From: Halichondria panicea
Taxonomy: Eukaryota; Porifera; Demospongiae; Suberitida; Halichondriidae
NCBI RefSeq assembly: GCF_963675165.1
Contig: NC_087377.1
Location: forward strand, 16,844,518 to 16,908,517
Length of the DNA stretch: 64,000 nucleotides
Direction of reading: 5' to 3'
Shown here: piece after piece, positions 5,843 through 57,465 of the stretch
Layout: every line of letters begins with the position of its first letter
Numbering within the stretch: position 1 is the stretch's first letter
Program-made: the position numbers and the translations under genes
Notes under the pieces: model-generated
Told to the model about the DNA's origin: nothing
The model's database searches: none
Seen by the model: the letters and a program-made list of their open reading frames with translations, nothing else

Positions 5843-7896
5843 ATGCTGACCTGACAAGTGGCTCGGACACAGTGGAGGCAACAAAGAGGGAATCAAAGGA
5901 CACTCAACCAGTCAAGAACGTGCGTACATGTAGTGTGTGAATGAGATTCCCACAGCAACAATAGTATTGTACCTTAACATGCATGGATGCTGTTTCATGT
6001 GTTAAGCCGTAACTACACATCCGTTTGAGTGTGTCTATAACTAGGGGTACACATGGTGCAATCCTCGCTCAGCATAAAATTTTGCTTGACGTCGTTTAAA
6101 TTAATGTAAAGATGTTGTAATAATTGCCACGTAAGAAAGCTAGGTTTGTGTATTCAATAAAGACAGTGTAGAACCTCTTTGTGAGATCCAAAGCGGGCCA
6201 GAGAGTCTTGTGTTGATGCATGTACACTACATAATTATTGTGAGAAGAGTAGGGTAGAGAAGTAGCTAGATCTAGCTGGAGATGTTTGTGTAATGATCGT
6301 TTTTGTGGCGGATCATCACGGTAAGAACCATAGTTGAAGTAAGTTCACGGTTAACGGCCGTGCAGAGCTTCACTATGGGATGAGAAGTCGTTTGGAGAGT
6401 ATAGCGTTGATGTAGAGTACCTGTGCTGAGTTTAGAGCGAAACCGCTTGACTGGAGAGCAACTGGAGCTAGATCTAGTTTTAATCGACCAACCACCACCA
6501 CCACTACCACCACTACCACTACCACTACCACCACCACTACGACCGTTGATCTCGATTGAACCTAGCACGATTATAGCCTCGCTTCGCTCGGAATTATGTA
6601 CTTCATTTAGCGGAAGTTGTTGCTTGTTCTCGTTTTGTTGTAGAAAATTATATTCACGTCTGTGTTTTAATTGGAAGATTTTTTCCCCTGTACAGGCACA
6701 CAAAGAACAGATTAAGCACAAAGATGCTGAGCTGGACAGGAGAGACGCCATCATTAAACAGCAGAGACAGGCGAGACAAAATGCATTATATTGCTGAGCT
6801 ACATGGTATATACCTAAAGCTTTGATTCGTACATTCTATTAGAAGACTGCATGGTTGTCGTCGCCTTTTAAGCTAATAAATACAGAAAGTGATTTAGTGT
6901 GCATGCAATTATTGCTACAAGTAACACTCGCTTGTTAGTAGACACTATCCTAATTACACTCATTCATTATTCAGGGTCCCCCTCCCAGAGAGTCGAGACC
7001 TCCACTCACTCTGAAATGGAGAAGAGGAAAAGACATGCCAATCAAGATGGGATACTCAGTACAGAGTGTTGTTATCGGTGACACGGTGTATGTTGGTGGA
7101 AGTGGTGCAGACAATGATCGTGACTCGTGTACAGTGATGAAGCTCGAGCAAGATCAATGGACCAAACTAGCACAGTATACTGCCAAGTGGTTCGCTATGA
7201 CATCACTCGCTAGTCGACTAGTGCTGGTGGGAGGGTATGATTCAAGAAACTACAAACTCACCAATCAACTTGCAGTATTTGAGTCAGAGGAATGGACTCA
7301 CCCGTACCCACCAATGAACATTGCTCGTTTTTCCTCAACAGCTGTCTCCTTCAACAACCACATCATTGTAGCTGGTGGGCATGATGATAAAGGACGTACC
7401 TCCTCTGTGGAGGTGTTGGACGTGGCATCAAGAAGATGGTACATTGCTCAGTCACTACCTAACCCACGATCAGCTGAACTCGACTCTCATAGGAAACACC
7501 CTCTACCTAATGGGAGGGTGGGCTCACACTTGGGCAACCAAGACAGTGCACCACGTCGACCTCAATGAACTCATTACAAAGGCCCTTTCCAACCTGGTCA
7601 CACCCACTCTCTGGCAGACCTTACCGGAAGTACCACTCGTATGGCCAGCTCCTCTCAGTATTGGGGGGTCACTATTAGCCGTTGGTGGAACAGGCGACAG
7701 AAGAGGCAACCCAAGTTCATCGATCCACCTCTACCAGCCTGACACCAGGAGGTGGGTGAAAGTGGGAGACCTGCCTACTGCACGATACGGCTGCACATGC
7801 TCAGTACTTCCTAGTGGAGAGGTCATTGTAGCTGGAGGACGAACAGAACTATCTAAACGTATTCAAACTGTGGATTTCTTTTCTATAAGTGATTAG
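5843..7896 (+). pseudogene. Gene 1, 3' part: hinge, coiled coil and frameshifted Kelch propeller
   Basis: Exons: 5843-5919 (hinge, SDTVEATKRESKD), 6696-6770 (25-residue coil with HKDAELDRRDAII), and 6975-7896 (Kelch). The coil exon is followed by GCGAGAC where genes 2, 4 and 5 have GTGAGAC, so this copy needs a GC-AG intron. The Kelch frame from 6975 shows blade motifs VYVGG, LVLVGG and IIVAGG, then breaks. CGATCAGCTGAACTCGAC lacks 2 nt relative to the other copies (near 7472-7482), giving a stop at 7568. The remaining three blades (LYLMGG, LLAVGG, VIVAGG) continue in another frame to 7896. The rest of the sequence is undamaged, so the break is recent or an assembly error. Confidence 0.8.
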
Positions 7897-8029
7897 TTAT
7901 TTTGTAGTTTCTCTTTGTAATGTAGCATTGTTCAATGATCGATCTTGATGCTTTTTTATCGTGTTGAAAAGAACTTTTTTAGATATTATAATTAGCCGTT
8001 CATCAAAATTTTATGACATGAAGTGGTAC

Positions 8030-8240
8030 CAAGGGCGTATAAAAGAAGAGAGGGCATGCAACTCCTATATGAGCAGAGTTCAAATGTGGGCGGATGAATG
8101 TGCATGACTGTGCATGAAATGAAATTTCTATTTTTAGCACTTCATGCAAATGCACACATTCCTCCGCCCACGTTTGAACTCTGCTAGCTACGTGTACTGA
8201 TAGTGGAGTTGCATGCCCTCTCTTCTTTTATATGCCCTTG
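8030..8240. mobile_element. 211-bp foldback element with 7-bp target duplication
   Basis: Arms CAAGGGCGTATAAAAGAAGA and its near reverse complement, then GAGTTCAAATGTGGGCGGA and its match. GTGGTAC occurs on both sides (8023-8029 and 8241-8247). The equivalent spot near 57764 has a single GTGGTAC. Non-coding. Confidence 0.75.
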
Positions 8241-8308
8241 GTGGTACGTTATACGTACATATTTAATTTTTTTGCCGGAATGACTACAAAAACAGACAAA
8301 TTACAGTC

Positions 8309-8430
8309 TCGTAACAAGTTCAGGTCCTTGGTTGGGGTCTTGTCCGAGGGTAGGGTGACGCCTTCTCCCAGAATCCAAAGTCTATCTCCTCTTCCGAGTC
8401 AGACAGTGAGGGGTGGGGCTGGCTCGGGAA
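8309..8430 (-). pseudogene. Decayed last exon of an unidentified acidic gene, copy 1
   Basis: In the best copy (57832-57950) this exon reads SDSEEEIDFGFWEKA and ends PTKDLNLL plus stop. Here one C is missing after GAGAAGGCGTC, shifting the frame, and the terminal TGA is CGA. Family not recognised. Confidence 0.5.
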
Positions 8431-8622
8431 CTGAGGGGTTAAAGAATCACATGGTCATAGTCATACTGAGTGGAAGTTTGAGGGCTTAGGAAGTAAGGAG
8501 TGAGAAAATCACATGATAATAGTAGCTATAATTTATACTGGCTAAATGCAAAATGGCTCAACTATGATAAAAGGGACACCACACACAACACATGTACTGG
8601 TATACAATATGTACGTACTTAC

Positions 8623-8746
8623 ATTATGAATACTAGAATAATCGTAAGAGTCAGTTAAAGTGATACCTTTTGTGGAGGGTGAGAGCTGCTGAGCTTTGGC
8701 ACTCTCCAGGAACTTGTCAAAGTCCTCCTCGTCCTGAGTCAGTGTT
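8623..8746 (-). CDS. Exon of the same unidentified gene (TLTQDEEDFDKFLES)
   Basis: 124-nt open segment with acceptor CTACAG and donor AAT|GTAAGTACG on the - strand. It reads TLTQDEEDFDKFLESAKAQ and then a Ser/Tyr-rich stretch. A near-identical copy is at 58134-58257. It can be spliced in phase to the acidic FGFWEKA exon downstream if acceptor CCCGAG is used. Upstream exons are not certain. Function unknown. Confidence 0.5.
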
Positions 8747-10828
8747 CTGTAGCCAGGATAAACAAGACATGGACACATTCAAACTGGTAGTGTGATGAAG
8801 GGTCTGGTACACGTACTGTACAATGTCATGTACAAATATTGTGAACTAGTGTTCTCAATTGACACACGTTTCCCTGTACACACCTAAACTGCATACTGAA
8901 GCATACCTTGTATACAAGTGCATGTACATACAGACTAGTAAGCATGCTAGGTTCCCATTCTGTGTACTGTACATTCAATAGTACACAGTGGACTCATTGC
9001 ACTGCATAACTACACATTATACACACGTACTTTGTTCTTGATGAAGGTTCTTCTCAATGCCAGCTAATGGTTAGCTCATGCACAAGCAGTCCATTACCAG
9101 GCCAACTTTCGAGGAAGTGCGGCTTGAGATGGAGGCTAGGCTGCACATAATTATAATGGGCGTGGTTTATATATAAATGGGGGTGGCTATGTTCACAACA
9201 AATTTTATTTTATGTTCACTGAATAAGACACAAATATCATGTATAAAAACTATATATACTTAATAATACTGACAATGTAGCTATAGTAAGTGAAGGAGAG
9301 ATTACTAAAAAACACACGTTAAAACTAGAACAGTATAAACAGTCCACAATTATAATATACTGTACACTACTGTTGAGAGGATTGGTCCACCGTTTCCATA
9401 GACATTGAATCTTGCCCGGGGCTACCAGCACTTGAGTTGCTTGTGAGCACATTCTGAGCCAGAATCAGAGTGTTGAGCAGACTAGCAGCAGCCGCGGCAG
9501 AGAGACCACCACCACCACCACCGCCATTGTTGTTGGCTTGTGACAGCATGGAGGATTTCGGTACAGGAGTGGACGGAGAAGTGGTCGTGCTCGCAATAGA
9601 GGATAGAGTTTGTACGAGTGAGCTTAAGAGTGGTGTGTTTGGATTAGAGGCTCCAGTCGGCAGCGATGATTGTAAGAGAGGAGAGAATTGTGACGAAGCT
9701 GACAAGTGCATAGGTTGTGCTTGCGAAGGTGTCAGGCTGGAGACAATGCCACCAAGTTGTTGTAGGGATGAGATAGAACTTGGTGTTTGGTTCTGTGCCA
9801 GTGAGGTCAACAGAGGGCTGTTGGTGAGGTTCTGTGCCAGGGATAGTAGTAGTTGCTGTGCTGCTACATTGTTAGTTTGTTGTGTGGATTGTTGTGGAGG
9901 GGAGACAGAAGTGGTCGGTGGTGAGTGGGTCACTACTGTGTTGAGGAGACTCTGGGCCAGAGGAGAGTTTAGAAGTTGCTGGTTAGGTTGCTTTTGACCA
10001 GAAGAGGCAGCTGCATCGATTCCAAACTCATAATCTGTGCTCGAAGAAATGCGTTCTCTTTCTCTAGGACTTGGATCTGGTTTTGAAGCATTGCTAAAGC
10101 GTTGGTTGATTTCTCTGCGATTTTGGCACTGGCTGTGAGTTGTTCGTTTTAAAACACGAGCTCTTTCAAGTAGTCCACTGTCTTGTCCAGTACCGTTCCC
10201 TTGCTGTACACATACTGCAGTCAGGGAAACATGACGTGAGGGTGAGACATGTACGTGGAGATAACAAAAAAACATACTTAGTTGCTGTTAAAAAATAGCA
10301 ACTTTATTTTATGAGCAACTAACTACATGTGTTATATACGATGGCCTCTGCTGGATTCTATGCTACTACTAACATAACACTGGGCTCTACACTAATGCAT
10401 GCTTAAAAAAGCTTAGCAATAATATTAAGAAATTTAGGCTTAAAAAAAACCAAGTTAGTAGTTATTTCGATGGCTTTCAATAGTACTTTAGTATACACAT
10501 GAACAGACACACACACTCACCCCGACAAAGGAACCGGTATAGTTGCGTCTTTCTTCTGACAAGCAAACACTATCTGAGCCAGTATCTTGATGAGCTCGTT
10601 GATCCTGTCCCGACGCCGACGCTCAACTGGGCGTGGGAAGAACAACAACAACTGGTAATTATCGTGCTTAGGGCATGTACAATGAAGCTGAGCCAATTGG
10701 CAAAATGAATGAACCTTGACCTCACACACACACACGTACACCACTGTACAGTATAAAAACCAAGGCATAATTAATAATTAAGAATGCGTTTACAGCATTA
10801 GATAGCCTCTACAAAACAAGTTATTAGC

Positions 10829-12717: not shown

Positions 12718-12734
12718 AGTGTGTGTGTGTGTGT

Positions 12735-23647: not shown

Positions 23648-26616
23648 ATGGCCACTCAAGCAACCCCCGACCATTCTCCAGAGTACCTGTCCTTTCAAGA
23701 GAACTTTGAAGCATTGGTGTCCACCTTCAAAGCTCAAACTGCTGCATATGCTGATAGCCTCTTCTCCAATGGCTACATACCAGATGAAGTTCTCGAGTAC
23801 TCTAGACTGAATGGAGTCATGGATTCCGATAAGTCTCGAAAGATTTTAGATACCATCATCCATCGAATTAAGCTCAATCCCAGTGTATTCCACGGCTTTA
23901 TCGCTGCCATCGCTGGCCCTTCTACTGACGATGTTGTCAAGAAGCTGCACGATAGTTACGAGCGTCACAAGACTGCGACCAGCCGTGTTGAACAGCCACC
24001 ACTCTCTCCACCCCCACACCAGCAACCTCCACCAGAGGCTCCGACGTCCTTCAGCTTCCCACACCTCGACACCTCTAGCCTTGATGAGGATATTAGAATT
24101 GAATTGGAGGATCGGCTCATACGTGATACAAGGAAAATGATAATTAGTTTCACTGCTTTTACTCTAATTATCCAAAGATCATTTGAAAACCAACGAATCC
24201 CTTTGGAAAGGATTAAAGATCTTATTCTCAGCCTTGACGCTTTCAACGACGGGATTGGAGTCAAAGTACTTGATCCAGAAGATAAGCAAGAAATCAAAAA
24301 TGCCAAAAATTTGCCTGAAGTCTTCATGACTCTACGTGATTACATCTCCTTCTTCAATTATGAGATAGTGCAGTACCTCATCGAGCTGCTGGGATCACCA
24401 GACGACCAAGCACAACTGCGTGAGTATTGCTCTGCACATGATCAGTTCTGTCATCGAAATGTGTTTGAAGTTCCAGCCGAATCTTTCTCTTCAAAATCTC
24501 GTATGAAAACGGCCAAAGTATTTGTTCTCAAGTGCACGGAGCGAGTAGCCACACTGGAGTATGTGAAAAGGCTGACTTCAAGAATTGCTGAAGCACTTGG
24601 TCTACAAAGAGCAGCGCTACAACTCCGTTCAGTCAAACAAGGCTGCTTGGAGCTCCACTTTCTCGTCACTGTAGCTGTTGCCAAGCGTATCTACCCAGTG
24701 TCCCCTACTGTACAGGCTGCTCTCAGTGTGATGGGGGTCAAAGTTCTCACCTGTGGAAGTACGGATGAGGTGGAGACATTTCTGCTGGAACAGTAAGTTC
24801 TTGAAGAGGTACTATAATACCCATACTCCATACTCCTGGCATAATATAATAATTATACCGTAAGTTAATTAAGAAGCATGGGCCGTATATAGTTACAGTA
24901 ATATAATATTCGTATTATTATAATAATTACAAGTATGTACATGTCACGTACAGGGATCTGAGCAAACTCAAACTAGAAGGTATTGAGGAGATGTCTAAAG
25001 ACACAAGAATAAGCACGACAACCTTCACTCCAATGAAGGTCACTAAAGGTGAGTGTTTGGCCAACTTGATATCCTATAATCTCTCTTAAATTAGATACAA
25101 GAGGCTCGGACACATTGGAGGCAACAAAGAGGGAGTCAAAGGACACTCAACCAGTCAAGAAGGTGCGGGTGCGTACATGTAGTGTGATAATGAGATTCCC
25201 ACAGCAACAATAGTATTGTACCTTAACATGCATGGATGCTATCTCATGTGTTAAGCCGTAACTACACATCCGTTTGAGTGTTCCTATAATTATGTACTTC
25301 CTTTAGCGGAAATTGTTGTTTGTTCTCATTCTGTTGTAGAATTTTCCACTAATGATATTCACATCTGTGTTCAAAGATATCTACCAACGTTCCCCTGTAC
25401 AGGCACACAGGGAACAGATCGAGCACAAAGATGCTGAGCTGGTCAGGAGAGACGCCATCATTCAACAGCAGAGACAGGTGAGACAAAATGCACCATTATA
25501 TTATTGCAGAGCTATAGTAGAAGCTTTGATCTCTTATAATCGTACTGTACATTCTATTAGACTGGTGGGCGTCACCTCTTAAGCTAATTAGAGAAAGTGA
25601 TTTAGTGTGCATGCAATTATTGCTACAAGTAACACTCGCTTGTTAATTAGTAGACAATATCCTAATTACACTCATTCATTATTCAGGGTCCCCCTTCCAA
25701 AGAGTTGAGACCTCCACTCACTCTGAAATGGAGAAGAGGAAAAGACATGCCAATCAAGATGGATGGCTCGGTACAGAGTGTTGTTATCGGTGACACGGTG
25801 TATGTTGGTGGAGGTATTGCAGACAATGATCGTGACATGTGTACAGTGGTGAAGCTCGAGCAAGATCAATGGACCAAACTACCAGAGTACACTGCCAAGT
25901 GGTTTGCTATGACATCACTCGCTAATCAACTAGTGCTGGTGGGAGGAACTGATCCGAGAAACAACAAATGCACTAATCAACTAGCACTGTTGGAGTCAGG
26001 GGAATGGACTCACCCGTACCCACCAATGAACATTGCTCGTTCTTCCTCAACGGCTGTCTCCTTCAACAACCACATCATTGCAGCTGGTGGGTTTGATGAT
26101 AAAGGATATACCTCCTCTGTGGAGGTGTTGGACGTGGCATCAAGAAGATGGTACATTGCTCAGTCACTACCTAACCCACGATCAGAACTGAAATCGACTC
26201 TCATAGGAAACACCCTCTACCTAATGGGAGGTTGGGATATAAATGTGACAGTAACCAAGACAGTGTACCATGTTGACCTCAATGAACTCATTGCAAAAGC
26301 CCGATCCAACCTGGACACACCCACTCTCTGGCAGACCTTACGGGAAGTACCACTCAGGCTGTCAGCTCCTCTCAGTATTGGGGGATCACTATTAGCCGTT
26401 GGTGGAGTAAACAACAGAGGCAACCCAAGTTCATCGATCCACCTCTACCAGCCTGACACCAGGAGGTGGGTGAAAGTAGGAGACCTGCCTACTGCACGAT
26501 ACAGCTGCACATGCTCAGTGCTTCCTAGTGGAGAGGTCATTGTAGCCGGAGGACAGACAAGTACATATATTAATTATATTCCAACTGTTGATTTCTTCTC
26601 TATAAGTGCTAATTAG
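23648..26616 (+). CDS. Gene 2: CARD-like domain, unnamed helical region, coiled coil and Kelch propeller
   Basis: Exons 23648-24792, 24954-25048, 25095-25162, 25403-25477 and 25687-26616 join in phase to 770 aa with no stop. Residues about 15-90 form a helical block (YADSLFSNGYIPDEVLEY, then DKSRKILDTIIHRIK) resembling a CARD. A Pro-rich linker follows (about 118-133). Residues about 145-380 are a conserved-looking region I cannot name (VQYLIELLGSPDDQ, VFVLKCTERVATLEYVKRL). Then come the shared hinge (SDTLEATKRESKD), the 25-residue coil, and six Kelch blades with GG motifs (VYVGG, LVLVGG, IIAAGG, LYLMGG, LLAVGG, VIVAGG). No signal peptide or membrane helix, so a cytoplasmic protein is likely. 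CARDs recruit partners by homotypic contact (family knowledge). A ligand-sensing role for the propeller is inferred. Confidence 0.85.
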
Positions 26617-34434: not shown

Positions 34435-35668
34435 ATGTCTGACTATCTCACAATAGCAGATCTAAAGAGATTGTACCTCGTCACGTTTGATGCTCGAATC
34501 AAGTGGCGAAACATCTTGCTTATTCTTGATGTACCCTCAGCTACAATTGACAGCATTGGGAAAGAATGGAGCAACAATCCTGATGACTGCTATCGTGAGG
34601 GTTTGAAAGAATGTCTTAATGCAGAAGGAGAGAAAAGCTGGAAAGATATGGTGGAGGCTTTGTCTAGTCCCATCGTGGGTGAATTTCACATAGCCAAGAC
34701 CATCGAGAAAGATCATTTACAGTCTACTTCAGAGGGTAAGCATTAGTTCAGCACAGGAATGCATATCTCATAATTAGTTGGTATAATTTCACCCCCTGCC
34801 CCCCCCCACACACACACACGCACACACACACGCACACACACGTGACATACACACATAATGTTCTGCAGATGACCAAAATCGCCAGTTGATCAACGACAAT
34901 TTGATCGTTTTCCTAGACGAGCTTCTTGGTAAAGGTGCATTTGGAGCAGTCTTCAAAGGCAGCTACAAGGGCGAGATGTGTGCCGTCAAAGTTCTGCTTC
35001 ACGATGCTGTGGAGATGCAGGCAAGTATTTCAATCGGCAAAAACGAAGAAGCTAGCAATGCGATTGATCGTGAGAGTGATTTTCTCAAGTCGTTCCAGCA
35101 CCCAAACGTTGTTCAGTTTCTGTCGACTGCCAAGCACCCCAAATCAGGTAGTACAATCCTCACTGTTGAGCTGATGGATTGCAATCTGAGATCCTATTTC
35201 TCTGGCCTTGGTGAAGAGTCCCTCACTAGCGAATGTGAAATTAGTCTCTCCAAAGACATGGCTTGTGGTCTGGCCTTCATTCATAGCAAGCAGATTATCC
35301 ACCGTGACCTCTGTGGCGATAACGTCTTGCTGAAGCTTACACAACCAGTGCCTATCGCAAAAATTTCCGACTTTGGTATGTCACGATTATACGATCCCTC
35401 CAAGCTTAGCCAAACCCTCACAGCTGTTGGTCACCGTAGAGGGTATCTACCTCTCGAGGCTATTCGATTGGATGAGGAGAATTACGATAATAGCGTGGAT
35501 GTTTTTTCCCTTGGGGCGATTATGGTACAGATTGTTCGCAAGCTAAAGACAGTCAAATCTGTGGAAGATCGATCATTCCATGTTGCCCGGATCCCTCGCA
35601 CACACAGGTTGAGGAAGCTTATCGACAGTTGCTTGCAAGAAGACATCATAGCCCACAATCAGTACTGA
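34435..35668 (+). CDS. Gene 3: Death domain plus kinase, truncated by an internal deletion
   Basis: Exons 34435-34735 (Death domain from MSDYLTIADLKRL) and 34869-35668 (kinase) join in phase to 366 aa. An upstream in-frame ATG at 34396 would add 13 residues, but ATG 34435 matches genes 4 and 6. The Death-domain exon lacks eight codons before its donor (TSEG in place of the NPTDVKSEG end). The kinase keeps GKGAFGAVFKG, AVK, HRDLCGDN, DFG and PLEA. At about 35645 the kinase sequence LIDSCLQED jumps straight into Kelch blade 4 DNA and stops at TGA. The last kinase residues (RRPSARDI), hinge, coil and blades 1-3 are deleted. The product would be a Death-domain kinase without a sensor; whether it is made is unknown. 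Confidence 0.75.
34801..34852 (+). repeat. (CA)n tract before the kinase acceptor of gene 3
   Basis: C-run then CACACACACG-type repeats, in the same intron position as in genes 1, 4 and 6. Confidence 0.9.
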
Positions 35669-36148
35669 AATCGACTCTCATAGGAAACACCCTCTACCTA
35701 ATGGGAGGGTTGGATCACACTGGGGAAACCAAGTCGGTGCTCCACGTCAACCTCGATGAACTTATTGCCAATGCCCTTTCTGGGGCAACCAAATCGGACA
35801 ACTTGAACCTCAAGGAACTCGTTGCAATTGCCCTTTCCAACTGGGACCCATGCACCCATTCTCTGGCAGACCTTACAGGAAGTACCACTCGTGTTCTCAG
35901 CTCCTCTCAGTATTGGGAGGTCACTCTTAGCCGTTGGTGGACGGGACGACAGACGCAACCCAAGTTCATCGATCTACCTCTACCAGCCTGACACCAGGAG
36001 GTGGGTGAAAGTGGGAGATCTGCCTACTGCACGATACGGCTGCACATGCTCAGTACTTCCTAGTGGAGAGGTCATTGTAGCCGGAGGACAGACAGAACTA
36101 TATTCTGATCGTATTCAAATTGTGGATTTCTTTTCTATAAGTGATTAG
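35646..36148 (+). pseudogene. Residual Kelch blades of gene 3
   Basis: Begins in blade 4 (LIGNTLYLMGGLDHTGETK). A stretch of about 57-60 nt, coding TK then ELIA/ELVA and ALS, is imperfectly duplicated. The frame then shifts before blade 5. Blades 5-6 are intact in another frame (LLAVGGRDDRR, VIVAGGQTELYSDRI) to the stop at 36148. The 3' flank resembles that of gene 1, pointing to it as the closest relative. Confidence 0.7.
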
Positions 36149-40408: not shown

Positions 40409-43400
40409 TATTATTCATCTGATGGGACACCCTTTTATGCAAATTCAATGATGGCAACAATACGTCATTGCTTCGCTAATCCATTGTTTGCAAGTGTAGT
40501 CCAGAGGTATCCAGTTCAGCCTGACATGGAGTTGATGTAAGTAGTTTATTGCATGTACGTGTGTATGTATTTAATGAATTTGAATATTCCAGGGAAATGT
40601 ATCATGGAGAGCGCTGGAGAACAGACCCAAAACTTCAAACCCCTATGGCTGTTTTGCCTGTGGGTCACGTGTTTGTCAACGACTTTGTTATAGTCTCACA
40701 TCCACACTTTGGAAGTATATGTGTGAAGGTTCACAGATTTTACTGCAAGGTATTATAGTATAATTATGTTTAAACCATAAACTTACCTGTGCATACATGC
40801 ATGTATACAGGGTTCTGAGTTGCATATCCAAGCACATATATTGCTACACTGGACCAATTAAAAATAGCATTCACATCAGTTGTCTACCTGTATCCTGAGC
40901 CGGGTGCTTTGGTTATACTTGAATCTTCTGACTTCAAGGTTACGAACATTCTAACTATTGTTTCACCACCTAGCTCCCTACTTCGATATATGTTGGATTC
41001 AAACACTCTCGAACAACTTGGAATGAAGGTACATGTATATGATTACTGGCACGTATAATTATTTAAAAAAGTCATAATATTACTAATGTGTACCTGTATA
41101 ATTATAATGCTTTGCAGGAATTTGAGGATTTCATTCAACCTCATCCACTTAAGTATTCAGGATTAGGAAAGCCTGTTGTCACTGCACCAATTATTCTTTA
41201 CTCTGACGATACAAGTGGAAATAAGAGTAAAAAGTGGAACTGTTTTAACAGTTGGTGTTTCCTTGTGGCAGGACTTCCGCGTAGTGAAAATTCTCAATTA
41301 CGTAACATACACTTTATTACTTGTTCCAACAAGGTTTCTGTGTTGGATATGTCACGACCTGTTGCTGAGGATATCAAAACACTCCAAGAGGGAATAACTG
41401 TCTTTGATGCATTTCTCAAAACTGAGGTTATTGTGAGGGCACCTGTGATTTGCTTGATTGCTGATAATCCTCGCGCAGCAGAAGTCATTAATCATCGAGG
41501 TGGAAGTAGCAGGAAGTACTGCAGAAAGTGCATGGTATAATTTAATTATGTGATACGTTTTGTATGTACATGTATAATTATTATAGGTTGACAGAGAAGT
41601 TGATCCTGTTGATGTGAGCACTCTACGTACGAAAGATGTATCACTTAGCCAAATGAGAACTATACAGTCTGCACGGACAGAGTCAGAGAAGGAGAGTCTT
41701 CGAACTAGCTTTGGACTTCGTGAACGAGAAAATCCCATACTGTCATTGAACGTTGATTTATATCAGTAAGTTTAAGTACAACTTTTAGGGGTACATTAAG
41801 TCTGACAATAACAACATACTATTGCCCTTTTAGATCGACACCTGTTGAATGTCTCCATACGATTTTGCTCGGCCCGGTCAAGTACTTACTGAAACGCTTC
41901 ATTGCTGGATTAAAAAAGGAACAAAAAGTAGAAGTTCTGGCTATTGTTCAACAATTCAATTATTCTGGCTTTGACGTTCGACTGTATGGAAACATAATCA
42001 AACACCATTGTTCATTTGTTGGGAGGGATTACAAAGCCTGGGCACAGGTATGTTATTGAGTAAAATATAATAATGTCTATACCAATGCTTAGATGGCTGC
42101 TTTTATTGTGACCCCATATGTGACTACCAATGAAAGAAAATTATGGTTGGCACTTTTAAAAGTGAGTGCACTACATTTGGATGTGTATACATGTACATGT
42201 ATATTATGCATTTCAAACTTTATACCCTAGTTTGCGTGTGTATAGGTGTTCAGACTGGCATATTGTGTTCCATTTAATCCAAATTGTTCTGAGGAAAGCA
42301 GACAAGTATGTAAGGGGTTTGTAGACCTGGTGAAGGAATACAACCCACAAATGCTTAAAAAAATGAAAGTGCACCTACTGCTCCACCTTGTGGATGACCT
42401 CTGTGACTTCGGTCCCACTGCTGCTTTCAACACTGAAAGGTTAATGTTTAAATCGTGTACGTAAAATGATATGTGACACTTTTTTCGTCTTGTGTTTGCA
42501 GGTGTGAAGCCTTTAATTCATTGATGAGGGAGCAGAACATTTTTTCAAACAGACGAGCCCCAAGTCGTGATATTGCTGTTTCGTTTTCAACGTTAGAAGC
42601 ATTGAGATTTGTCTGCTCAAGTGGCTATTACCAGAGTGAGACAAATGAGGATTTTCAACAGTGAGTAATAATTTTGCTAGTTGGTTTACCTACGTTATAC
42701 TTGTATAGGTGTGGTGCTGGATTGACTAATCTTTACAACCAGCATGCAGTACAAACTGTTTTGAATGGTGTCTCGCCAAAATCACTAAATCTTGGCAAGG
42801 CTATATATCAGTCTGGAGCACTGAGAAAGGTAAGAATATTTACTGTACATGCATGGATTATTTTATCTGCATCTAGAAACAAGGCTCAACCAAGAAATTG
42901 AAAGATGTTGCCTTGTCTTTCAATGGCGCCAATCAGATGTATGGTGAAGTCTCAAGAGAATATGATATACATTCATCACCGTCTTTCTTGAATTTGGATG
43001 TTTTGGTGCAAACATATGGAGCAGTTTATTCCCAAAAGGGTCAACTCGTCAATAATGGACACTATGTACGAATTACTCCTTGCTTGAATGTAAGTGTTTA
43101 ATATCAATTTACATATACAATGTACCAATTATTATATTTCAGGTTGTGTACGGACTCCTGTTGACATGTGTTACGCTGGACAATTTAACCTACTGCATTC
43201 TACAGGAGCTCGAGTTGCAACAAGTTATGGGTTTCACCGTACACAATGAGCAAGACTGTCCCTTGTTAACTTTGACAAAAACATTGTGTGTTGTTCCATC
43301 TAGTGCTGTTATTACACATATTTCAGTGATTCATCAATGTACTAGCACTTGTAACATTACTATGCAGCCTTTCACAATCGAACGAGAACGAGAGCAACTT

Positions 43401-47438: not shown

Positions 47439-50299
47439 ATGTCGGACTATCTCACAATAGCAGATCTAAAGAAATTGTACCTCGTCACGTTTGATGCTCG
47501 AATTAAGTGGCGAAACATCTTGCTTATTCTTGACGTACCCCAGGCTACAATCAACAGCATCGGGAAAGAATGGAGCAACAATCCTGATGACTGCTATCGT
47601 GAGGGTTTGATTAAATGGCTTAATGAAGGAGGGAAGAGCTGGAAAGAGATGGTGGAGGCATTGACCAGTCCCATCGTGGGTGAAGCTCACATAGCCCAGA
47701 CCATCGAGAAAGATCATCTACAGTCTACTGGTCCAAGCAATCCTACTGATGTGAAGTCAGAGGGTAAGCACTAGTTCAGCACAGGAATCATACAGTCATA
47801 ATGCTTAGTTCGTTAGCTGCTATAATATTCACCCCCCCCCCACACACACACACACACACACACACACAATGTTGTACAGTTGACCAAACCCGCCAGAAGA
47901 TTAACGATGATTTGACTGTTTTCTTAGACAAGCCTCTCGGTAAAGGTGCATTTGGAGCAGTCTTCAAAGGCAGCTACAAGGGCGAGATTTGTGCAGTCAA
48001 AGTGCTGCTTCACGATGCTATGGAGATGCAGGCAAGTATTCCAATCGCCAAAGACGAAGAAGCTAGCAATGCAATTGATCGTGAGAGTGATTTTCTCAAG
48101 TCGTTCCAGCACCCAAACATTGTTCAGTTTTTGTCGACTGCCAAGCACCCCAAATCAGGGAGTACAATCCTCGTTGTTGAGCTGATGGATTGCAATCTGA
48201 GATCCTATTTTTCTGGCCTTGATGAAGAGTCCCTCACTAGCGAATGTGAAATTAGCCTCTCCAAAGACATAGCTTGTGGTCTGGCCTACATTCATAGCAA
48301 GCAGATTATCCACCGTGACCTCTGTGGTGATAACGTTTTGCTGAATCTTTCACGACCAATGCCTGTTGCAAAGATATCCGACTTTGGCATGTCACGGCTA
48401 TACGATCCCTCCAAGCTTAGCCACACTCTCACAGCCATTGGTCACCGTATGGGGTATCTACCTCTCGAGGCTATACGATTGGAAGAGAAGAAATACGATA
48501 ACAGCCTGGATGTGTTTTCCTATGGGGTGATTGTGACGCAAATTGTTTGCAAGCTGGAGACGATCAAATCAGTCAAGGATCGATTATTCCATGTTGCCCA
48601 GATCCCTCACACACACAGGTTAAGGAAGCTTATCGACAGTTGCTTGCAAGAAGACATGACGAGGAGACCATCTGCCAGGGACATCTGTGAGTCAATTATA
48701 ATTATGTGTTTTACGTTTCCACTAACTCCTAGCTCTAACAGAAAAATCATTTTATGTTGGTATCGATTTTCTTTTACTTTAGATGCTGACCTGACAACAA
48801 GCTCGGACACAGTGGAGGCAACAAAGAGGGAGTCAAAGGACCCTCAACCAGTCAAAAAGGTTCGTACATGTACTGTGATAATGAGATTCCCACAGCAACA
48901 ATAGTATTGTACCTTAACATGCATGGATGCTATCTCATGTGTTAAGCCGTAACTACACATCCGTTTGAGTGTGCCTATAATTATGTACTTCCTTTAGTGA
49001 AGATTGTCTCGTTCTGTTGTAGATTTTTCTGTAATGTTATTCACGTCTGTGTTTGATTTCCACCAACGTTCCCCTGTACAGACACACGGGGAACAGATTA
49101 AGCACAAAGATGCTGAGCTGGTCAGGAGAGACGCCATCATTCAACAGCAGAGACAGGTGAGACAAAATGCACCATTATATTATTGCAGAGCTATAGTAGA
49201 AGCTTTGATCTCTTATAATCGTACTGTACATTCTATTAGACTGGTGGGCGTGGCGTGGCCTCTTAAGCTAATTAGAGAAAGTGATTTAGTGTGCATGCAA
49301 TTATTGCTACAAGTAACACTCGCTTGTTAGTAGACACTATCCTAATTACACTCATTCATTATTCAGGGTCCCCCTCCCAGAGAGTTGAGACCTCCACTCA
49401 CTCTGAAATGGAGAAGAGGAAAAGACATACCAATCAAGATGGGTACCACGGTACAGAGTGTTGTTATCGGTGACACGGTGTATGTTGGTGGAGGGCGTGC
49501 AGGCAATGATCGTGACGTGTGTACAGTGATGAAGCTCGAGCAAGATCAATGGACCAATCTACCAGAGTACACTGTCAAGTACTTCGCTATGACATCACTC
49601 GCTAATCGACTAGTGCTGGTGGGAGGACGTGATCTAAGAAACAACAAACCCACCAATCAGCTTGCAGTGTTTGAATCAGGGGAATGGACTCGCCCGTACC
49701 CACCAATGAACATTGCTCGTGATTCCTCAACAGCTGTCTCCTTCAACAACCACATCATTGTAGCTGGTGGGCGTGATGATGAAGAACGTACCTCCTCCTC
49801 TGTGGAGGTGTTGGACGTGGCATCAAGAAGATGGTACATTGCTCAGTCACTACCTAACCCACGATCAATACTGAAATCAACTCTCATAGGAAACACCCTC
49901 TACCTAATGGGAGGGTGGGATCACACTGGGAGGCCAACCAAGACAGTGCACCACGTCGACCTCAATGAACTGATTGCAAAGGCCCATTCGAACCTGGACA
50001 CACCCACTCTCTGGCAGACCTTACAGGAAGTACCACTCGTGTGGTTAGCTCCTCTCAGTATTGGGAGGTCACTATTAGCCGTTGGTGGACGAGACGACAG
50101 ACGCAACCCAAGTTCAACGATCCACCTCTACCAGCCTGACACCAGGAGGTGGGTGAAAGTGGGAGACCTGCCTACTGCACGATACTGCTGCACATGCTCA
50201 GTACTTCCTAGTGGAGAGGTCATTGTAGCCGGAGGACAGACAAAACTGTTTACTGCATATACTCCAACTGTTGATTTCTTCTCTATAAGTGCTAATTAG
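47439..50299 (+). CDS. Gene 4: Death domain, kinase, coiled coil, Kelch propeller (complete)
   Basis: Exons 47439-47763, 47880-48686, 48783-48859, 49082-49156 and 49367-50299 join in phase to 738 aa, the reference structure for the family. Residues 1-108 are a Death domain (LYLVTFDARIKWRNILLI, KEWSNNPDDCY, SWKEMVEAL). The kinase spans about 120-375, with GKGAFGAVFKG, AVK, HRDLCGDN, DFGMSRL and PLEA. The hinge carries SDTVEATKRESKD. The 25-residue coil has HKDAELVRRDAII. Six Kelch blades follow (VYVGGG, LVLVGGRD, IIVAGGRD, LYLMGGWD, LLAVGGRD, VIVAGGQT), ending FFSISAN. No signal peptide or membrane helix. The Death domain probably recruits partners, the coil self-associates and the propeller binds a ligand (inference from domain families). 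All catalytic residues are present. Confidence 0.9.
47831..47869 (+). repeat. C-run and (CA)n tract before the kinase acceptor of gene 4
   Basis: Same intronic position as in genes 1, 3 and 6. Confidence 0.9.
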
Positions 50300-50624: not shown

Positions 50625-53145
50625 GGCCAGTTTACGTGAGGCCCCTCTCTTTCTTAGCAGCATAGTAGGCCTAACGGTGTGTGTGTGTGGGGGGGGGTCG
50701 TACATGATTGTACATTGCACACCTTCAAGTAGGACACACTATAGCTGACCTTGAATGAATTTAAGGAACTCCACAAAGTATGACACAAATGCATTTTCCA
50801 GCTAACGTACTCTGTACCTCTACCTCCATTGTCAGTGCCTCTTCTTGTCTCCTCAACACTTGGCCGGGCTGAAAAATGGCCGCATAACTAGGGGCCGGAA
50901 AAGATGAGGGGTGGAAAAATCAAACAATAGTACAGAAGACAAATCAATCAGTCAATCTACAATTAGAACTAGAGCACTGAAGTGCTACCCTCGGCTGTTG
51001 ACATAAATAATAAAGATCTATAGAAACCAGAGGAGTGTTATACTGTATAGCGGGTAATTTTCAGGGGACAAAATATTCGTGGTTCAGCAATATTGAGACA
51101 TTTCGTGGGTAATATTTTCGTGGTTGCTGCTTGCACTGCAGGTAAAGGTAGGCATGGTCGCTTCATTCGTGGGTAATATTCATGGTCAGACCTCCAACCA
51201 CGAAAACGAAAACCACGAATATTTTGCCCCACGAAAATTACATGCTATACGGTACAATAGTATGATCTGGCTAAGCAGCAAGTAACGGGAGCAAAAAAAT
51301 AAAACTAGACTTAGATAGGGCTGAAACTTTTGAGAACGAGTTTTAGTAGAATCATAACACTAATAGTATCTTATTGCACTAGATTATAATGTTACTTCAA
51401 GATATACAGTGAAACAGTATAGCTGTACTCTAGAGGTGGCATAGGTCCGCTATGGAGTCCATTAATTAACCTGACTGTATTCTATAATAATCTCTATAGA
51501 GTGACTAGAATAAGAAAAGCTTCACTACAACTCTACACACTAACTGACATGACACAACTCACTAGTCGAGCCACTTTGATTTCTTGCTCTTGGACTTAAA
51601 CAAAGCCGAGTCAGCACTCATCCACAGAGAACAGTTAGCTACTTAACTTCTTGGGAGGCAATAAAGAGAGTGATGGTGCTTTATCTGCATTCAAGTGGTT
51701 GTATAGTGATATAAAGTGTTAGCATGTACCGTAGCCGTGAGGTGCAACATTTCACGTTTTTCGGGGCAGAGCAGCTAACGTGAACATTAAAACTGGGATA
51801 AAGCTATTGATGGGTGTGGTTTCCTAACATTGAAACGTGAATATTAGAACCCATGAGCATTTCTGATAGCCCAAGAGCCGCTATACGGTAAAACTAAGGA
51901 TTATGATGACTGTTTTACAAAACACTACACGATGACCTTTACCTAATATGCTCCAATATAATACTAAGATCTTACCTGACATAACACGTTATAATAACAG
52001 TAAGTAAATTACATGACCTTTACCTAATAGCGAGAGGTACTTCTCTTTGTACCCATTTTTCCGCTCCTTCTCAAAGTCCTTACGTAAACTTTTACCTCCA
52101 GTTTGGTGACACACGCAGAAACGGAATTATTTTGCTCTTGTAGGGTAGAGGCTGAGGACTCGACAGTCACCTTGTCTCTGTGGCAGGGGTGAGTGAGGGG
52201 GCGTGTGTTTGCGTGTGTGCAGAGAAACGAGGGTAACTAGTAAAATCATTAATTCAATTATGATATGAGAGAATACAGATGACCTTAATCAAAACTTGCA
52301 GTTAAGCATGGGCTTATAATCGAGTAAGCGCTAATAATCCAGTTTCTACAGGTACAATAACCAATACTCTAGCCTTTATAGGATTACTAAAACAGAGCCC
52401 CACACTAGTTGGTGGCAACATTCCTGTCCTATGAATTGACGTATTCAAATAGAATGGACACAGGCACGTGAACCACAAATTAGAACTAACAATTAACAAA
52501 CGCATATAAATAAGCATAATCACAATTTGCAGAACGGAGCTTTGACTCCAACATGGTCTCAGATAAGGCCCAAGGCTACGGCCCAAAGGCCCTGTCAGGC
52601 AGAAACATGACTTGTGCATAAACAAATGGCTCTGGCCAAACACAAAAAGTGTGAAAACTCCTAATGTTGATTCCAGTAGGACACTTCTAGGGGAGTTGTC
52701 CTTTTGGGTACTACAGAGCATTTATAAAGTCCACTGCTAAGCAACAATTATACAACCAACTGAAAATGCATTCTCAATATGCAATAATAATTAGATGTCC
52801 TTTTTGCCAGCTAGTTTCGTAGTTCTGGATGGGGATCAATCCCGTACATGTACAATGCTAATACTAAGATCATCATGGCAGATTGTTCATGCATGCACGA
52901 GCTCAAAGACAGATTATTATGGCCTGGGGGTATGCACATTTTGACATTTGAAATTCGGGAAAAGCTATTTCACAATTATAATATGATTGCATTTACCGGA
53001 GAGGTGTGGAGGAGGCAGTGACCACTGGAGAGAAGCTTGCTCTCGGAGGTTTGAACTTTTGGGCATTCAGGTTGAACTTGACGTCTTTGCATTGGGGTTC
53101 AGCTTGAACATGGCCCTGAGGAATTGCAAACTCAGTACATGTACA
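50625..53145 (-). CDS. Exon candidates of the unidentified coiled-coil gene
   Basis: Open - strand pieces: about 50830-50880 (LRRQEEALTMEVE), about 52030-52110 (SLRKDFEKERKNGYKEKYLS), about 52100-52190 (SSASTLQEQNNSVSACVTKL, another frame), and about 53000-53135. The last reads KFNLNAQKFKPPRASFSP, which resembles a PAM2-type motif (LNxxAxxFxP, binds poly(A)-binding protein in known proteins). I cannot assemble them into one frame. Coding status and unity are uncertain. Confidence 0.3.
51043..51252. mobile_element. 210-bp MITE with TA flanks, CTGTATAGCG ends
   Basis: Ends CTGTATAGCGGGTAATTTTC and GAAAATTACATGCTATACGG are imperfect inverted repeats flanked by TA. Interior repeats of TTCGTGGG/CCACGAA. 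Related to the element at 61322-61547. Confidence 0.65.
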
Positions 53146-53327
53146 CATACAAATACACATACATGTACTAAACTATGCGTGTTATTTAAATATTGTCCAC
53201 GCTCATTTTCAACAATTTGGGCATGAATTTCATATTGATTTAAGCACACTATGCACTATAAAGAAGAAACCGTATATAGCAGGTATATTTCGAGGATATT
53301 AAAAAGGTAGACTGGCGCGTAGCGTGA

Positions 53328-53585
53328 GCGAATGGCAAACTGCTTATCAGTCACTCGTCTCAGCGGAATATATGGATCATAATTATGACACTAGCAAACA
53401 TGAATATCATTATAGATAATGTGGTTATATTTTGCTATGAGATTTAGCTACTATGGAATGTATTGAATCCCCTGAAGTGTAAGTGCGGTTACAATTACAG
53501 GGCTAATATGACGTTGAGCAATCTGATAGGCTGCAATGCTCGTTGCAGCTGAGACGAGTGACTGATAGGCAGTTTGCCAGTCCCT
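53328..53585. repeat. Foldback element upstream of gene 5
   Basis: GGCAAACTGCTTATCAGTCA followed by CTCGTCTCAGC pairs with GCTGAGACGAGTGACTGATA and GGCAGTTTGCC. No gene inside. Confidence 0.65.
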
Positions 53586-54083
53586 CGCATGCGTAGGCTC
53601 CTCAACATACATATACTATTTACTAGTTTACAACAGTTTTTCCGGACCATCCAAATACAATACTTGGGTACAGTGAACATGACAATGTTGGCAGTAGGTA
53701 TATCCTATCAGGCTATTAAATAACAACACTATCACTCACTCATCATCCTGAGTTTGTCATCAGACTTGCATCTTTACGAGCAGCTTCGTCATGTAGGATC
53801 ATCTGATTGGCCAGGAACTTGCCATTCCCACCTCCTCAGCAATGGTCTCTCTCCATGGTCCTGGTTATGTCACTGTGGTCTACAAATTATAGGACTGGAC
53901 AAAGCCTCCACCTAACACTGAGACAATAGTTAGCCACTTGCTCCATGTTCCATGGGTGCTGGGTGACCACGTGGTTTGCTGATTCAGCTGTTATTGCATG
54001 TGATTGGACATTGGAATAGGAAAAAGGGCGTATCTTGTACATCTTGTAGCGCTAGCTAGCTGAGTCAACGTACTTAACTACCA

Positions 54084-57000
54084 ATGTTTTCTTTGCGAGA
54101 TGATGCTGACTTGAGGGAGTTTGTGCTGGAGAATGTGGAGCACTTTGGAGAGGAGAGAGTTCTAGGAACTGGCTCCTATGGCTCTGTTCAAGAGGTCAGT
54201 CACTGCATGCTCTGTTTCTGTGCACTGTCTCTAGTGTATCTGCTAGCTATTCAAGTGTGACTGCCTCCATGCACAGGTGATGATCAATGGTGAGGTGTAT
54301 GCAGCCAAGAAGATTCACGAGGTTCTCCTGGAGACGGACGAGCGTGGTGGAGTGGCCAACCTAGTTGGGAACTACCGCCGAGAGTGTCGACTCATGGCTC
54401 GCATCCGTCACCCCAACATCACCCAGTTCATTGGGCTGTGTTTCGTGACTGGCTCTCGACTTCCCCTCCTGGTCATGGAGAGGCTGGACTCAAGTCTGGA
54501 CGATCTCCTGGAGTCCACCCCCAACATCCCCCTCTCTGTCTGCCAGTACATTCTGGTCTGTGTGGCTCGAGGGCTGCTCCACCTGCATCGTGAGTCCGTG
54601 GTCCATCGTGACCTCACTGCCAGGAACGTCCTGCTGACGGCATCTCTGAGAGCCAAGATCACAGACTTTGGTAACTCTCGTATCGTGAATCTGGAGCCTG
54701 GTCGACTGGCCAGGACTCTGACGAGGTTTCCTGGGACACTGGTGTACATGCCGCCCGAGGCCCTCTCTGACAGAGGTCACAGTGTGTACGGACCCAGTCT
54801 GGACGTCTTCTCTTTCGGAGTGCTACAATTGTTTTCACTGACACAAGTATGTGTGTAGTTAATGATATTCATAGGTTAGATTCCTGGTGACCATTCATGC
54901 AGTGAATTACCTTATAAGTATTGTGGTTGTATGTGTTGGGGAGATCCCCCTTTAATATTGTTGACCTTCAGCAATTGCATTTTGTATGTATGATTGTGAA
55001 TATACGTGCACTCGTTTTCTCCATACATATAGACATACATAAAAACAATCATGACAGTCAGTATTCACATGTTCTTCCACTCGTGTCATTGGACTAGGTG
55101 TTTCCTGGAGATCTCCTTGCCCCCACGTACAGTGACCCCAACAACCCAGACCACCTCCTGGCTCGCTCAGAGTTTGAGCGTCGAGGTCCCTACACGGCTC
55201 TCCTTGAGAGGAGTCTGGCGGATGGACGTGAGCACCTTCTGTTTGGTCTGGTGAGGGAGTGTCTGGCCAACACCCCAGAGAGAAGACCGACCACCGCTGA
55301 GCTCCTCTCGTCTCTGGAGGAGGTGGGGAGGGAGATGGACGGAGGACTGCTCCAGCTGGACATTGCACGAGTGAAGACTGCCAGGACCCTCAGGGCAAAG
55401 GAGAAGAGGATAGAGGCTCTACAGGTGAGTCCAGTCTAGTGAGCTAGTGGGTGAAAGGGTCTGACACTGCATGCTGTACTCTGTTCTCAGAGAGAGGTGG
55501 TCCAGAAGGACAGGATACTGGAGAGGAAAGATGAGCAAATAGTACAGAAAGATGAACAACTTACTGAGAAAGATGAGCAACTTACTGAGAAAGATGTACT
55601 TCTTGTGCAAAAAGACGATCAACTAGATCAAAAAGACGGACTTCTGGCACAAAAAGATGAGCTACTTGTTCAAAAAGATGAGGAAGTAGCAGACAAAGAT
55701 ACTCAGCTGGCTAGACTGCAACAGGTCAGCAGAACCAGTTTATTTCGTTTATTATAAGCTATTTTGTTCAACAAGCTAGCATGTTGATAACCTTTTTTTA
55801 TACAGATATTGAATAGTGTCCGTACTAATGCTGCCACCAAAGATGGTGTGATTGCTGACAAGGACAGACAACTCAGTGAACAAGAGTCAAGGATCACTGA
55901 TCTCATTTCCCAGAGAGAGGCTGCTCTAGTTGAGAGGGCCGCTCTCTTACAGGTATTATAGTAGTCACCAAATGCACACACTCTTATACGCTAGTATTAT
56001 ACTACAATAATGATATTTGTTTGCGTACATGTAGCTAAGTGTGTCGATGAGATTCCAACAATAGTAGTATACCTCAACAATTGATGCTATTGTATAAATC
56101 ATGTTAAGCTGCTAAATACACATCCGTTTGAGTGTGCCTATAATTATGTACTTCCTTTAGCAGAAATTGTTGTTTGTTCTCGTTCTGTTGTAGAATTTTC
56201 TCTAATGTTATTCATGTCTGTGTTTGATTTCCACCAACGTTCCCCTGTACAGGCACACAGGGAACAAATTGGGCACAAAGATGCTGAGCTGGTCAGGAGA
56301 GACGCCATCATTCAACAGCAGAGACAGGTGAGACAAAATGCACCATTATATTATTGCAGAGCTATAGTAGAAGCTTTGATCTCTTATAATCGTACTGTAC
56401 ATTCTATTTGACTGGTGGGCGTGGCCTCTTAAGCTAATTAGAGAAAGTGATTTAGTGTGCATGCAATTATTGCTACAAGTAACACTCGCTTGTTAGTAGA
56501 CACTATCCTAATTACACTCATTCATTATTCAGGGTCCCCCTCCCAGAGAGTTGAGACCTCCACTCACTCTGAAATGGAGAAGAGGAAAAGATATGCCAAT
56601 CAAGATGGGTACCTTGGTACAGAGTGTTGTTATCGGTGACACGGTGTATGTTAGTGGAGGTGGTGGTGCACTCAATGATCGTGACATGTGTACAGTGATG
56701 AAGCTCGAGCAAGATCAATGGACCAAACTACCAGAGTACACTGCCAGGTACTTCGCTATGACATCACTCGCTAATCGACTAGTGCTGGTGGGAGGATATG
56801 ATCCAAGAAACAAAAAACGCACCAATCAGCTTGCAGCGTTTGAATCAGGGGAATGGACTCACCCGTACCCACCAATGAATATTGCTCGCTATTCCTCAAC
56901 AGCTGTCTCCTTCAACAACTACATCATTGTAGCTGGTGGGCGTGATGATAAAGGACATACCTCCTCTGTGGAGGTGTTGGACGTGGCATCAAGAAGATGG

Positions 57001-57465
57001 TACATTGCTCAGTCACTACCTAACCCACAATCAGATCTGAAATGGACTCTCATAGGAAACACCCTCTACCTAATGGGAGGGTTCGATCACACTCGGAGTG
57101 CAACCAAGACAGTGTACCACGTCGACCTCACTGAACTCGTTGCAAAGGCCCTTTCCAACCTGGACACACCCACTCTCTGGCAGACCTTACAGGAAGTACC
57201 ATTTGTGCATTCAGCTACTCTCAGTATTGGGAGGTCACTATTAGCCGTTGGTGGAGCGGACAACAGACGCAACCCAAGTTCATCGATCCACCTCTACCAG
57301 CCTGACACCAGGAGGTGGGTGAAAGTAGGAGACCTGCCTACTGCACGATTCTTCTGCACATGCTCAGTACTTCCTAGTGGAGAGGTCATTGTAGCCGGAG
57401 GACAGACAAAACCATTGTATGGTAATTATGTTCAAACAGTTGATTTCTTTTGTATAAGCGATTAA
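54084..57465 (+). CDS. Gene 5: kinase, long KD-heptad coiled coil, shared coil and Kelch propeller (complete)
   Basis: Exons 54084-54194, 54277-54846, 55098-55424, 55491-55724, 55806-55952, 56253-56327 and 56533-57465 join in phase to 798 aa. The start ATG is the first in frame (MFSLRDDADLREF). There is no Death domain. The kinase (about 25-310) has GTGSYGSVQE, AAKK, HRDLTARN, DFGNSR and MPPEAL, closer to canonical tyrosine kinases than genes 1-4 and 6. It is followed by LVRECLANTPERRPT. Residues about 350-425 hold some eight KDxxL heptads (QKDEQLT, EKDVLLV, QKDDQLD, QKDELLV), then a second coil exon (ADKDRQLSEQESRITDLI). The common 25-residue coil (HKDAELVRRDAII) and the six-bladed Kelch cassette complete it. 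Oligomerisation through the coil is inferred. No membrane segment is visible. Confidence 0.9.

Follow-up and report, generated by a model that had tools for sequence, protein, structure and literature searches.

The Kelch array and its genes

The window analyzed here is a 64,000-nucleotide stretch of contig C1 (C1:16,844,518-16,908,517) in the 131.5-Mb, 39-contig assembly of Halichondria panicea. It contains part of a tandem array of genes whose last exon encodes a Kelch propeller. An earlier note, made from the letters alone, had already placed this DNA in a sponge, which is correct, and had located an array of Kelch exons in it. The five Kelch copies of that array are indeed inside the window, although the exon of gene 1 is broken in frame and that of gene 3 is a remnant (35649-36143). 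In gene 3 the kinase passes directly into the middle of the Kelch exon at 35646-35649, apparently by a deletion between two exons. A sixth gene leaves the window at its end and has its Kelch exon beyond it, at C1:16909274.

The hypervariability that the note had read from a few copies is real and extends far beyond the window. With the Kelch exon of gene 5 as query, at least 127 near-full-length copies of at least 79% identity were found in the genome (a lower bound, 127 of 459 candidates having been scored), and 126 of the 127 are free of internal stops. One region of C1 holds 104 of them in two arms: a minus-strand arm of 54 copies (15.48-16.13 Mb, median spacing 9.3 kb) and a plus-strand arm of 50 copies (16.71-17.39 Mb, median spacing 8.2 kb). 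This strand rule has no exception among the 104 copies. The arms are transcribed divergently, and none of the listed copies falls in the gap between them (16.13-16.71 Mb). The remaining 23 are located on C6, C28, C12 and other parts of C1. Some identical Kelch exons are separated by more than 1 Mb, with copies on both arms.

Gene 4 consists of five exons with GT-AG introns, encoding a Death-like domain, a kinase, two linkers and the Kelch propeller (738 residues). Seven RefSeq models (P0121-P0127) align to 100% of its length with 82-88% identity. As shown by the gene models, the constant N-terminal part of the family is of three kinds: a Death-like domain with a kinase, a second kinase with a coil, or a CARD-like module. 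Among 20 loci with upstream DNA, the Death-like domain and kinase 1 were present in 12, kinase 2 in five and neither in three. One of these three (L052) bears the 382-residue module of gene 2, which RefSeq joins to the gene 2 Kelch exon in LOC135352241 X2. The 57 proteins P0121-P0177 can be divided into 15 Death-kinase-Kelch, 19 kinase-2-Kelch, seven CARD-like-Kelch and 16 other proteins. Both the HRD and DFG motifs are kept in all models of the first two types (15/15 and 19/19). The kinase displays a TKL-like similarity, its best PDB matches including LIMK, RAF and EGFR/Eph kinases. The 382-residue module gave no Pfam or PDB family match, and "CARD-like" is an unconfirmed label given by eye. 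Pfam scans of the exons and the Pfam matches listed for P0121-P0177 contain no BTB/BACK, LRR, ROC-COR or NACHT/NB-ARC domain, and hydropathy gave no membrane-like stretch in the seven proteins examined.

Variation in the Kelch exon

The variation analysis is based on 87 distinct exons, derived from 97 tblastn rows via 93 near-full Kelch exons; about 40 of the 127 genomic copies lie outside this set. Genes 1 and 3 of the window were excluded from the alignment because they are broken. Two Kelch exons cut by the edge of the extracted stretch and one with a TGA were also dropped. Residues are numbered after gene 5, in which Kelch residue p begins at base 56512+3(p-1) of the window.

It had been claimed that the window copies are nearly identical except at single positions, given as seven residue series (at LVLVGG, NIAR, the blade-3 AGG, TSS, TAR-Y/F, SAP/AP and AVGG). 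All seven series were recovered in the translations of the open reading frames, and the larger set shows the same near-invariant backbone: the median entropy per Kelch codon is 0.25 bits, and 24 of 317 codons reach 2 bits or more. Single hypervariable codons directly adjoin near-invariant ones. Eleven strong sites hold 9-14 different residues each. Comparison of every copy with its nearest relative yields 2168 residue differences, and 841 of these (39%) are at the 24 sites, which make up 7.7% of the length. For 21 sites picked from the main-array copies, the mean entropy in 10 copies outside the array was 1.99 bits vs 0.34 bits elsewhere. The pattern is therefore not a product of chance, since both these out-of-sample copies and four clusters of homologues (see below) vary at the chosen sites.

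Structure and the variable face

The Kelch exon of gene 5 was modelled by AlphaFold as a six-bladed propeller (predicted local distance difference test 89.4, predicted template-modelling score 0.89). Its identity rests on matches to the Pfam Kelch families together with this closed model. Foldseek returned KLHL and Keap1-derived structures at E about 1e-17; the best 50 matches listed comprise Keap1-derived designs as well as KLHL20, KLHL2, KLHL3, KLHL12 and others. Keap1 itself is absent among these 50 and matches by sequence: a single Kelch sequence finds both KLHL12 and Keap1 in the PDB. A profile of the Kelch alignment gave no PDB match at E <= 1e-30, a threshold that was too strict.

By the strand limits of the model, 17 of the 24 hypervariable sites lie in B-C loops, six in D-A loops and one at the end of strand B2. 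The B-C and D-A loops are the longest of the propeller (66 and 64 of 310 residues), and finding 23 of 24 sites in them has P = 9e-9 against 130 of 310 residues. By established propeller topology, in which successive strands of a blade run in opposite directions, these two kinds of loop belong to one face. The loops of the opposite face are nearly constant, with means of 0.19 bits (A-B) and 0.31 bits (C-D). The claim that variation occurs only at blade loops thus stands for 23 sites and fails for the one that ends strand B2, while the expectation of one variable face is borne out by the predicted structure. Over 12 of the face sites, 80 of the 87 copies have a distinct combination of residues.

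Relative to the glycine pair (GG) of each blade, the variable positions are at GG+1 and GG-16, give or take about one residue, and more loosely between GG+4 and GG+8. The Keap1 equivalents are residues 478, 525 and 572 (GG+1), 414, 461, 508 and 555 (GG-16) and 483, 530 and 577 (GG+6). In PMC6891428, those positions are named as residues of the Keap1 ligand pocket. Motif counting, with KEAP1 letters matched to PDB chains, thereby places the hypervariable sites near the positions that form this pocket.

Selection on the face codons

The ratio of non-synonymous to synonymous differences (pN/pS) is 2.70 at the 24 sites, a value biased upward since the sites were picked by entropy, 0.63 at all other codons and 0.44 at codons below 1 bit. 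Other exons of the same family have ratios of 0.35 (kinase-1, n=18), 0.37 (Death-like, n=12) and 0.13 (kinase-2, n=6), and none of the three contains a site of 2 bits or more.

Codon-site tests were carried out with fixed-tree code of our own (MG94-type, with separate synonymous and non-synonymous rates per site). On one tree, 47 of 311 sites were positive (15 after Bonferroni correction) and 42 negative. With six trees, one per blade, 36 were positive and 39 negative, and eight sites remained positive after correction (34, 96, 52, 144, 175, 127, 253 and 173). The same code applied to the kinase found 3 of 262 sites positive, none after correction. Two random sets of 18 Kelch exons, matched to the kinase in depth, still gave 22 and 16 positive sites of 311. 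The diversifying selection that the earlier note expected is therefore supported by the tests. The excess of non-synonymous change lies largely on one predicted binding face, with 30 of the 36 positive sites in the B-C and D-A loops and the others at residues 96, 112, 116, 236, 246 and 317.

The codon phase of the changes points in the same direction. At eight strong sites, the first two bases occur in 8-13 combinations, while 657 of the 661 codons ending in a pyrimidine have the same one as third base; at codon 34 it is C in 87 of 87 copies. Such constancy is usual for silent sites here (median minority count 1). The pattern is explained by selection on the amino acid, mutation alone being blind to codon phase, and a mutation hotspot alone was rejected on this ground. 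Relaxed constraint was likewise rejected on pN/pS, the site tests and the loop placement. An artefact of picking sites by entropy is answered by the out-of-sample tests (the 10 outside copies and the homologue clusters), and one of the single tree is partly answered by the blade-wise trees, the kinase control and the depth-matched subsets.

Homogenization, possible exchange and isoforms

Among 1128 pairs from 49 loci, 76% have a 210-bp intron 5' of the Kelch exon that diverges by 5% or less. In 190 of the 1128 pairs the intron differs by no more than 0.5%, and even there an average of 16.8 of the 24 face residues are different; about 17 differences over the 24 sites are found in typical copy pairs. 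Sites are weakly linked (mean r2 of 0.042 up to 30 bp and of about 0.02 at larger distances), and the four-gamete test fails for 3464 of the 12880 informative pairs. Both results suggest exchange between copies. This fits a scenario in which flank and backbone are homogenized by conversion or unequal exchange and the face codons are held diverse by selection.

Some RefSeq isoforms hint, without proof, at one N-terminus being spliced to alternative Kelch exons. LOC135352306 X3 and X4 are identical over their first 485 residues (the Kelch exon starts at 461) and end in two different Kelch exons (L087 and L016) that lie about 16 kb from each other. The last 334 residues of X3 recur in X5 of the same gene, whose N-terminus is different. 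In LOC135352075 X4, the module of L052 is joined to the Kelch exon of L040, about 25 kb away. Such isoforms could also be the product of reads mis-mapped among similar copies.

Distant kinase-Kelch relatives

Kinase-coil-Kelch relatives are also encoded in other assemblies, where 59 proteins (P0181-P0239) are 24-33% identical to gene 4. At least 25 and at least 20 relatives are found on two ENA contigs of 1,424,719 and 1,157,099 bases (P0195, P0240-P0305). There they form uninterrupted frames of about 750 residues and thus apparently have few or no introns. Clustering of 116 homologues of 650-860 residues yielded clusters of 46, 42, 10 and 6 proteins (104 in total), the other 12 being in clusters too small to test. 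These clusters are likely from other sponges, and several of them may represent one species.

At the columns that are hypervariable in H. panicea, mean entropies in the four clusters (in the same order) are 2.35, 2.08, 1.53 and 1.49 bits, compared with 0.45, 0.58, 0.34 and 0.34 bits at other Kelch columns and 0.26, 0.42, 0.24 and 0.33 bits in kinase and coil. Of the 24 most variable Kelch columns in each cluster, 21, 18, 19 and 16 coincide to within one residue with a site hypervariable in H. panicea, against some four expected. Further clusters of 20 and 4 proteins behave alike (2.10 vs 0.60 bits and 1.20 vs 0.39 bits). The proteins P0001-P0120, some of which come from other assemblies, were left unused for a comparison of individuals: 48 of the 120 are identical to one of the 87 exons and 64 are below 90% identity, and alleles cannot be separated from paralogues among them because the database is clustered at 90% and the exon set is incomplete.

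Features of the window

The features of the six genes and the most variable codons of gene 5 are collected in Table 1. Two further open frames were seen in the window. The one at 41067-41540 (157 codons) has no Pfam match and is presumably similar to transposase-type proteins of large DNA transposons. The other, at 9367-10287 on the minus strand (306 codons), is rich in Q, S and L and resembles a nuclear regulatory protein.

Table 1. Kelch-array features by window position; p values of codons are from the codon-site test with six blade trees
Feature	Position	Strand	Basis and remarks
Gene 1 Death-like exon, end part	48-153	+	blastn with gene 4 exon, 87%
Gene 1 kinase-1 exon	266-1072	+	blastn with gene 4 exon, 89%; PF00069 by kinship to gene 4
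Gene 1 Kelch exon	6975-7891	+	blastn 91%; frame broken at about 7465-7472, two tblastn pieces in different frames
Gene 2 N-terminal module	23648-24793	+	382 residues, one exon; residues 1-382 of RefSeq LOC135352241 X2
Gene 2 Kelch exon	25687-26616	+	residues 461-770 of LOC135352241 X2 (RefSeq exon 25684-26613); Pfam Kelch
Gene 3 remnant, whole	34435-36143	+	blastn with gene 4 exons
Gene 3 Death-like part	34435-34728	+	
Gene 3 kinase part	34870-35646	+	
Gene 3 Kelch pieces	35649-35780, 35807-36143	+	
Gene 4 exon 1, Death-like	47439-47763	+	gene model with GT-AG introns
Gene 4 exon 2, protein kinase	47880-48686	+	PF00069 E 8e-39; HRD and DFG motifs kept
Gene 4 linker exons	48783-48859, 49082-49156	+	gene model
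Gene 4 intron 5' of Kelch exon	49157-49366	+	strongly homogenized among copies
Gene 4 Kelch exon	49367-50299	+	identical copies at C1:15825377 (minus) and C1:17364543 (plus)
Gene 5 kinase-2 exons	about 54083-54196, 54275-54849, 55100-55426	+	PF00069 on 54247-54858; limits by eye
Gene 5 coiled-coil-like repeat exons	55492-55954 (approximate)	+	KDEQL-type heptads in translation
Gene 5 Kelch exon	56533-57465	+	Pfam Kelch; AlphaFold model; numbering reference
Hypervariable codon 34	56611-56613	+	D-A loop, blade 1; 12 residues; p 5e-9
Hypervariable codon 52	56665-56667	+	B-C loop, blade 1; 13 residues; p 1.5e-6
Hypervariable codon 96	56797-56799	+	GG+1, blade 2; 14 residues; p 3e-8
Hypervariable codon 127	56890-56892	+	D-A loop, blade 3; 12 residues; p 2e-5
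Hypervariable codon 144	56941-56943	+	GG+1, blade 3; 12 residues; p 4e-6
Hypervariable codon 175	57034-57036	+	D-A loop, blade 4; 13 residues; p 1e-5
Hypervariable codon 253	57268-57270	+	B-C loop, blade 5; 13 residues; p 4e-5
Hypervariable codon 281	57352-57354	+	D-A loop, blade 6; 9 residues; p 3e-4
Gene 6 Death-like and kinase	62768-63092, 63274-63997	+	cut by window end; locus L045

Comparison with known systems

The family shares the six-bladed Kelch fold with the KLHL/Keap1 propellers, and its variable positions match the Keap1 pocket series to within about one residue. However, kinase or death-fold-like modules were found in place of BTB/BACK, and the sponge family has more than 100 paralogues with a hypervariable face. 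In working logic it resembles the NLRs of animals and plants, with a putative death-fold effector at the N-terminus, a variable sensor at the C-terminus, large tandem arrays and a cytosolic nature; the sponge proteins carry a kinase in the middle. The putative Death-like domain joined to a kinase would be a likeness to the IRAK/Pelle and RIPK families, which are not known to have a Kelch sensor or an array of such size. Some sponge RefSeq isoforms, if real, would resemble Dscam-type exon arrays in sharing one N-terminus and differing in the Kelch exon, whereas a sponge Kelch exon usually has its own upstream gene copy.

In the LRR-ROCO immune receptor candidates of brown algae, as reported in PMC11378527, one face of a repeat fold is under diversifying selection, exons are exchanged and the variable exons are alternatively spliced. 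As described there, they combine LRR with a ROC-COR GTPase and each repeat is its own exon, whereas the sponge proteins combine Kelch with a kinase and the whole propeller is one exon. The best reading of these likenesses is that the sponge Kelch proteins may work like NLRs and LRR-ROCO proteins while belonging to neither.

A transcriptome study of H. panicea screened TLR, NLR, CTLD, SRCR and GPCR genes and reported that most putative receptors are expressed individual-specifically (PMC8242945). Its lipopolysaccharide-responsive kinase genes include some with DEATH domains, which may or may not belong to the present family. For two other sponges, PMC6208332 reports changes in Kelch-motif genes following microbial cues. 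Among the matches listed from the open-licence PMC literature, no description of such a Kelch family was found.

Interpretation and alternatives

The array probably represents a tandemly amplified family of cytosolic, germline-diversified recognition proteins, mostly kinases, with a putative ligand-binding face and perhaps an immune role. The earlier note had proposed the status of a recognition-receptor family, which we likewise infer, together with ligand binding by the variable face. The six-bladed propeller would then be the sensor, with about 24 hypervariable residues on the face of the B-C and D-A loops, and the constant N-terminal part the effector. By analogy to Pelle/IRAK, RIPK and NLRs, ligand binding might lead to clustering or release of the effector and start a kinase or death-fold cascade. 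The diversity would be encoded in the germline and arise as genes duplicate in tandem, their backbone and flanks are homogenized, copies exchange some sequence and diversifying selection acts on the face codons. Microbial or other foreign ligands (innate immunity) would be the most probable targets, followed by markers of self and non-self.

Several observations weigh against this reading. The three pairs of copies that are closest but still distinguishable (1, 2 and 3 residue differences) are identical at all 24 sites, and in the next pair 2 of 5 differences fall there. Discordance between the 5' and 3' halves of the exon is not above that of random splits (r 0.49 vs 0.51 +- 0.06), so that part of the apparent exchange may be repeated mutation. 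The codon-site test is our own implementation and its trees are possibly distorted by recombination. In the homologue clusters, hypervariable columns occur in the N-terminal part too (5, 4, 1 and 0 sites, in the order given above). Death folds in the N-terminal modules, the Death-like domain included, are weakly supported by sequence comparison: PF00531 was found in 2 of 12 paralogues with a best E of 0.013, below the cut-off, and a profile of the 12 had FADD as each of its 11 best PDB matches (E 0.009-0.41). Finally, the word Kelch is absent from the available part of PMC8242945.

The propellers might instead read or mark individual identity rather than microbes. Sponges show graft rejection, and the extreme diversity (80 of 87 copies distinct at 12 sites) would suit such allorecognition. 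Known allorecognition molecules, however, are mostly cell-surface proteins, and the sponge proteins examined have no membrane-like stretch; moreover, the diversity lies between paralogues of one genome. We regard this role as improbable, and slightly more so a role in substrate docking, in which the face would recruit many host proteins to the kinase and enlarge a signalling network without foreign recognition. KLHL propellers do bind host peptides by this very face (peptide structures of KLHL12, KLHL20 and KLHL3), but docking to fixed partners predicts purifying selection, whereas the non-synonymous rate exceeds the synonymous one at the face sites and typical pairs of copies differ at most of them.

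Explanations without selection for diversity fare worse still. It is very unlikely that the face loops simply tolerate any residue: loops are often variable and these are the longest ones, but relaxed constraint predicts a pN/pS near 1 rather than 2.7 and no excess in the site tests. In addition, the hypervariable codons stand beside near-invariant ones, and their positions recur in distant relatives. Least likely of all is a mutator, that is, a hotspot or directed mutagenesis making the diversity in the place of selection. It would account for a face diversity out of scale with flank divergence, as in the 190 pairs with near-identical introns, a mismatch that also follows from the homogenization of the flanks by conversion. 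Against it stand the constant third base, the youngest pairs without face-site differences and the codon lists, in which the changes are not limited to adenines.

A more far-reaching version of the recognition reading appears doubtful to us. In this version, the locus would be a combinatorial system of intracellular recognition in an early-branching animal, with modules spliced to several downstream Kelch cassettes, cassettes exchanged between copies and face codons kept diverse, and it would be shared by the other species with kinase-Kelch arrays. If true, the sponge would have a Dscam-like repertoire on a propeller scaffold, with a direct link to kinase and death-fold signalling.

As a germline-diversified recognition family, the Kelch proteins of H. 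panicea would provide a defined set of candidate receptors for the question of how sponges recognize microbes and each other. Their codon signature lies on a known ligand-binding face and points to the residues expected to determine specificity. If this reading is true, the Kelch propeller would join the short list of germline-diversified recognition scaffolds.

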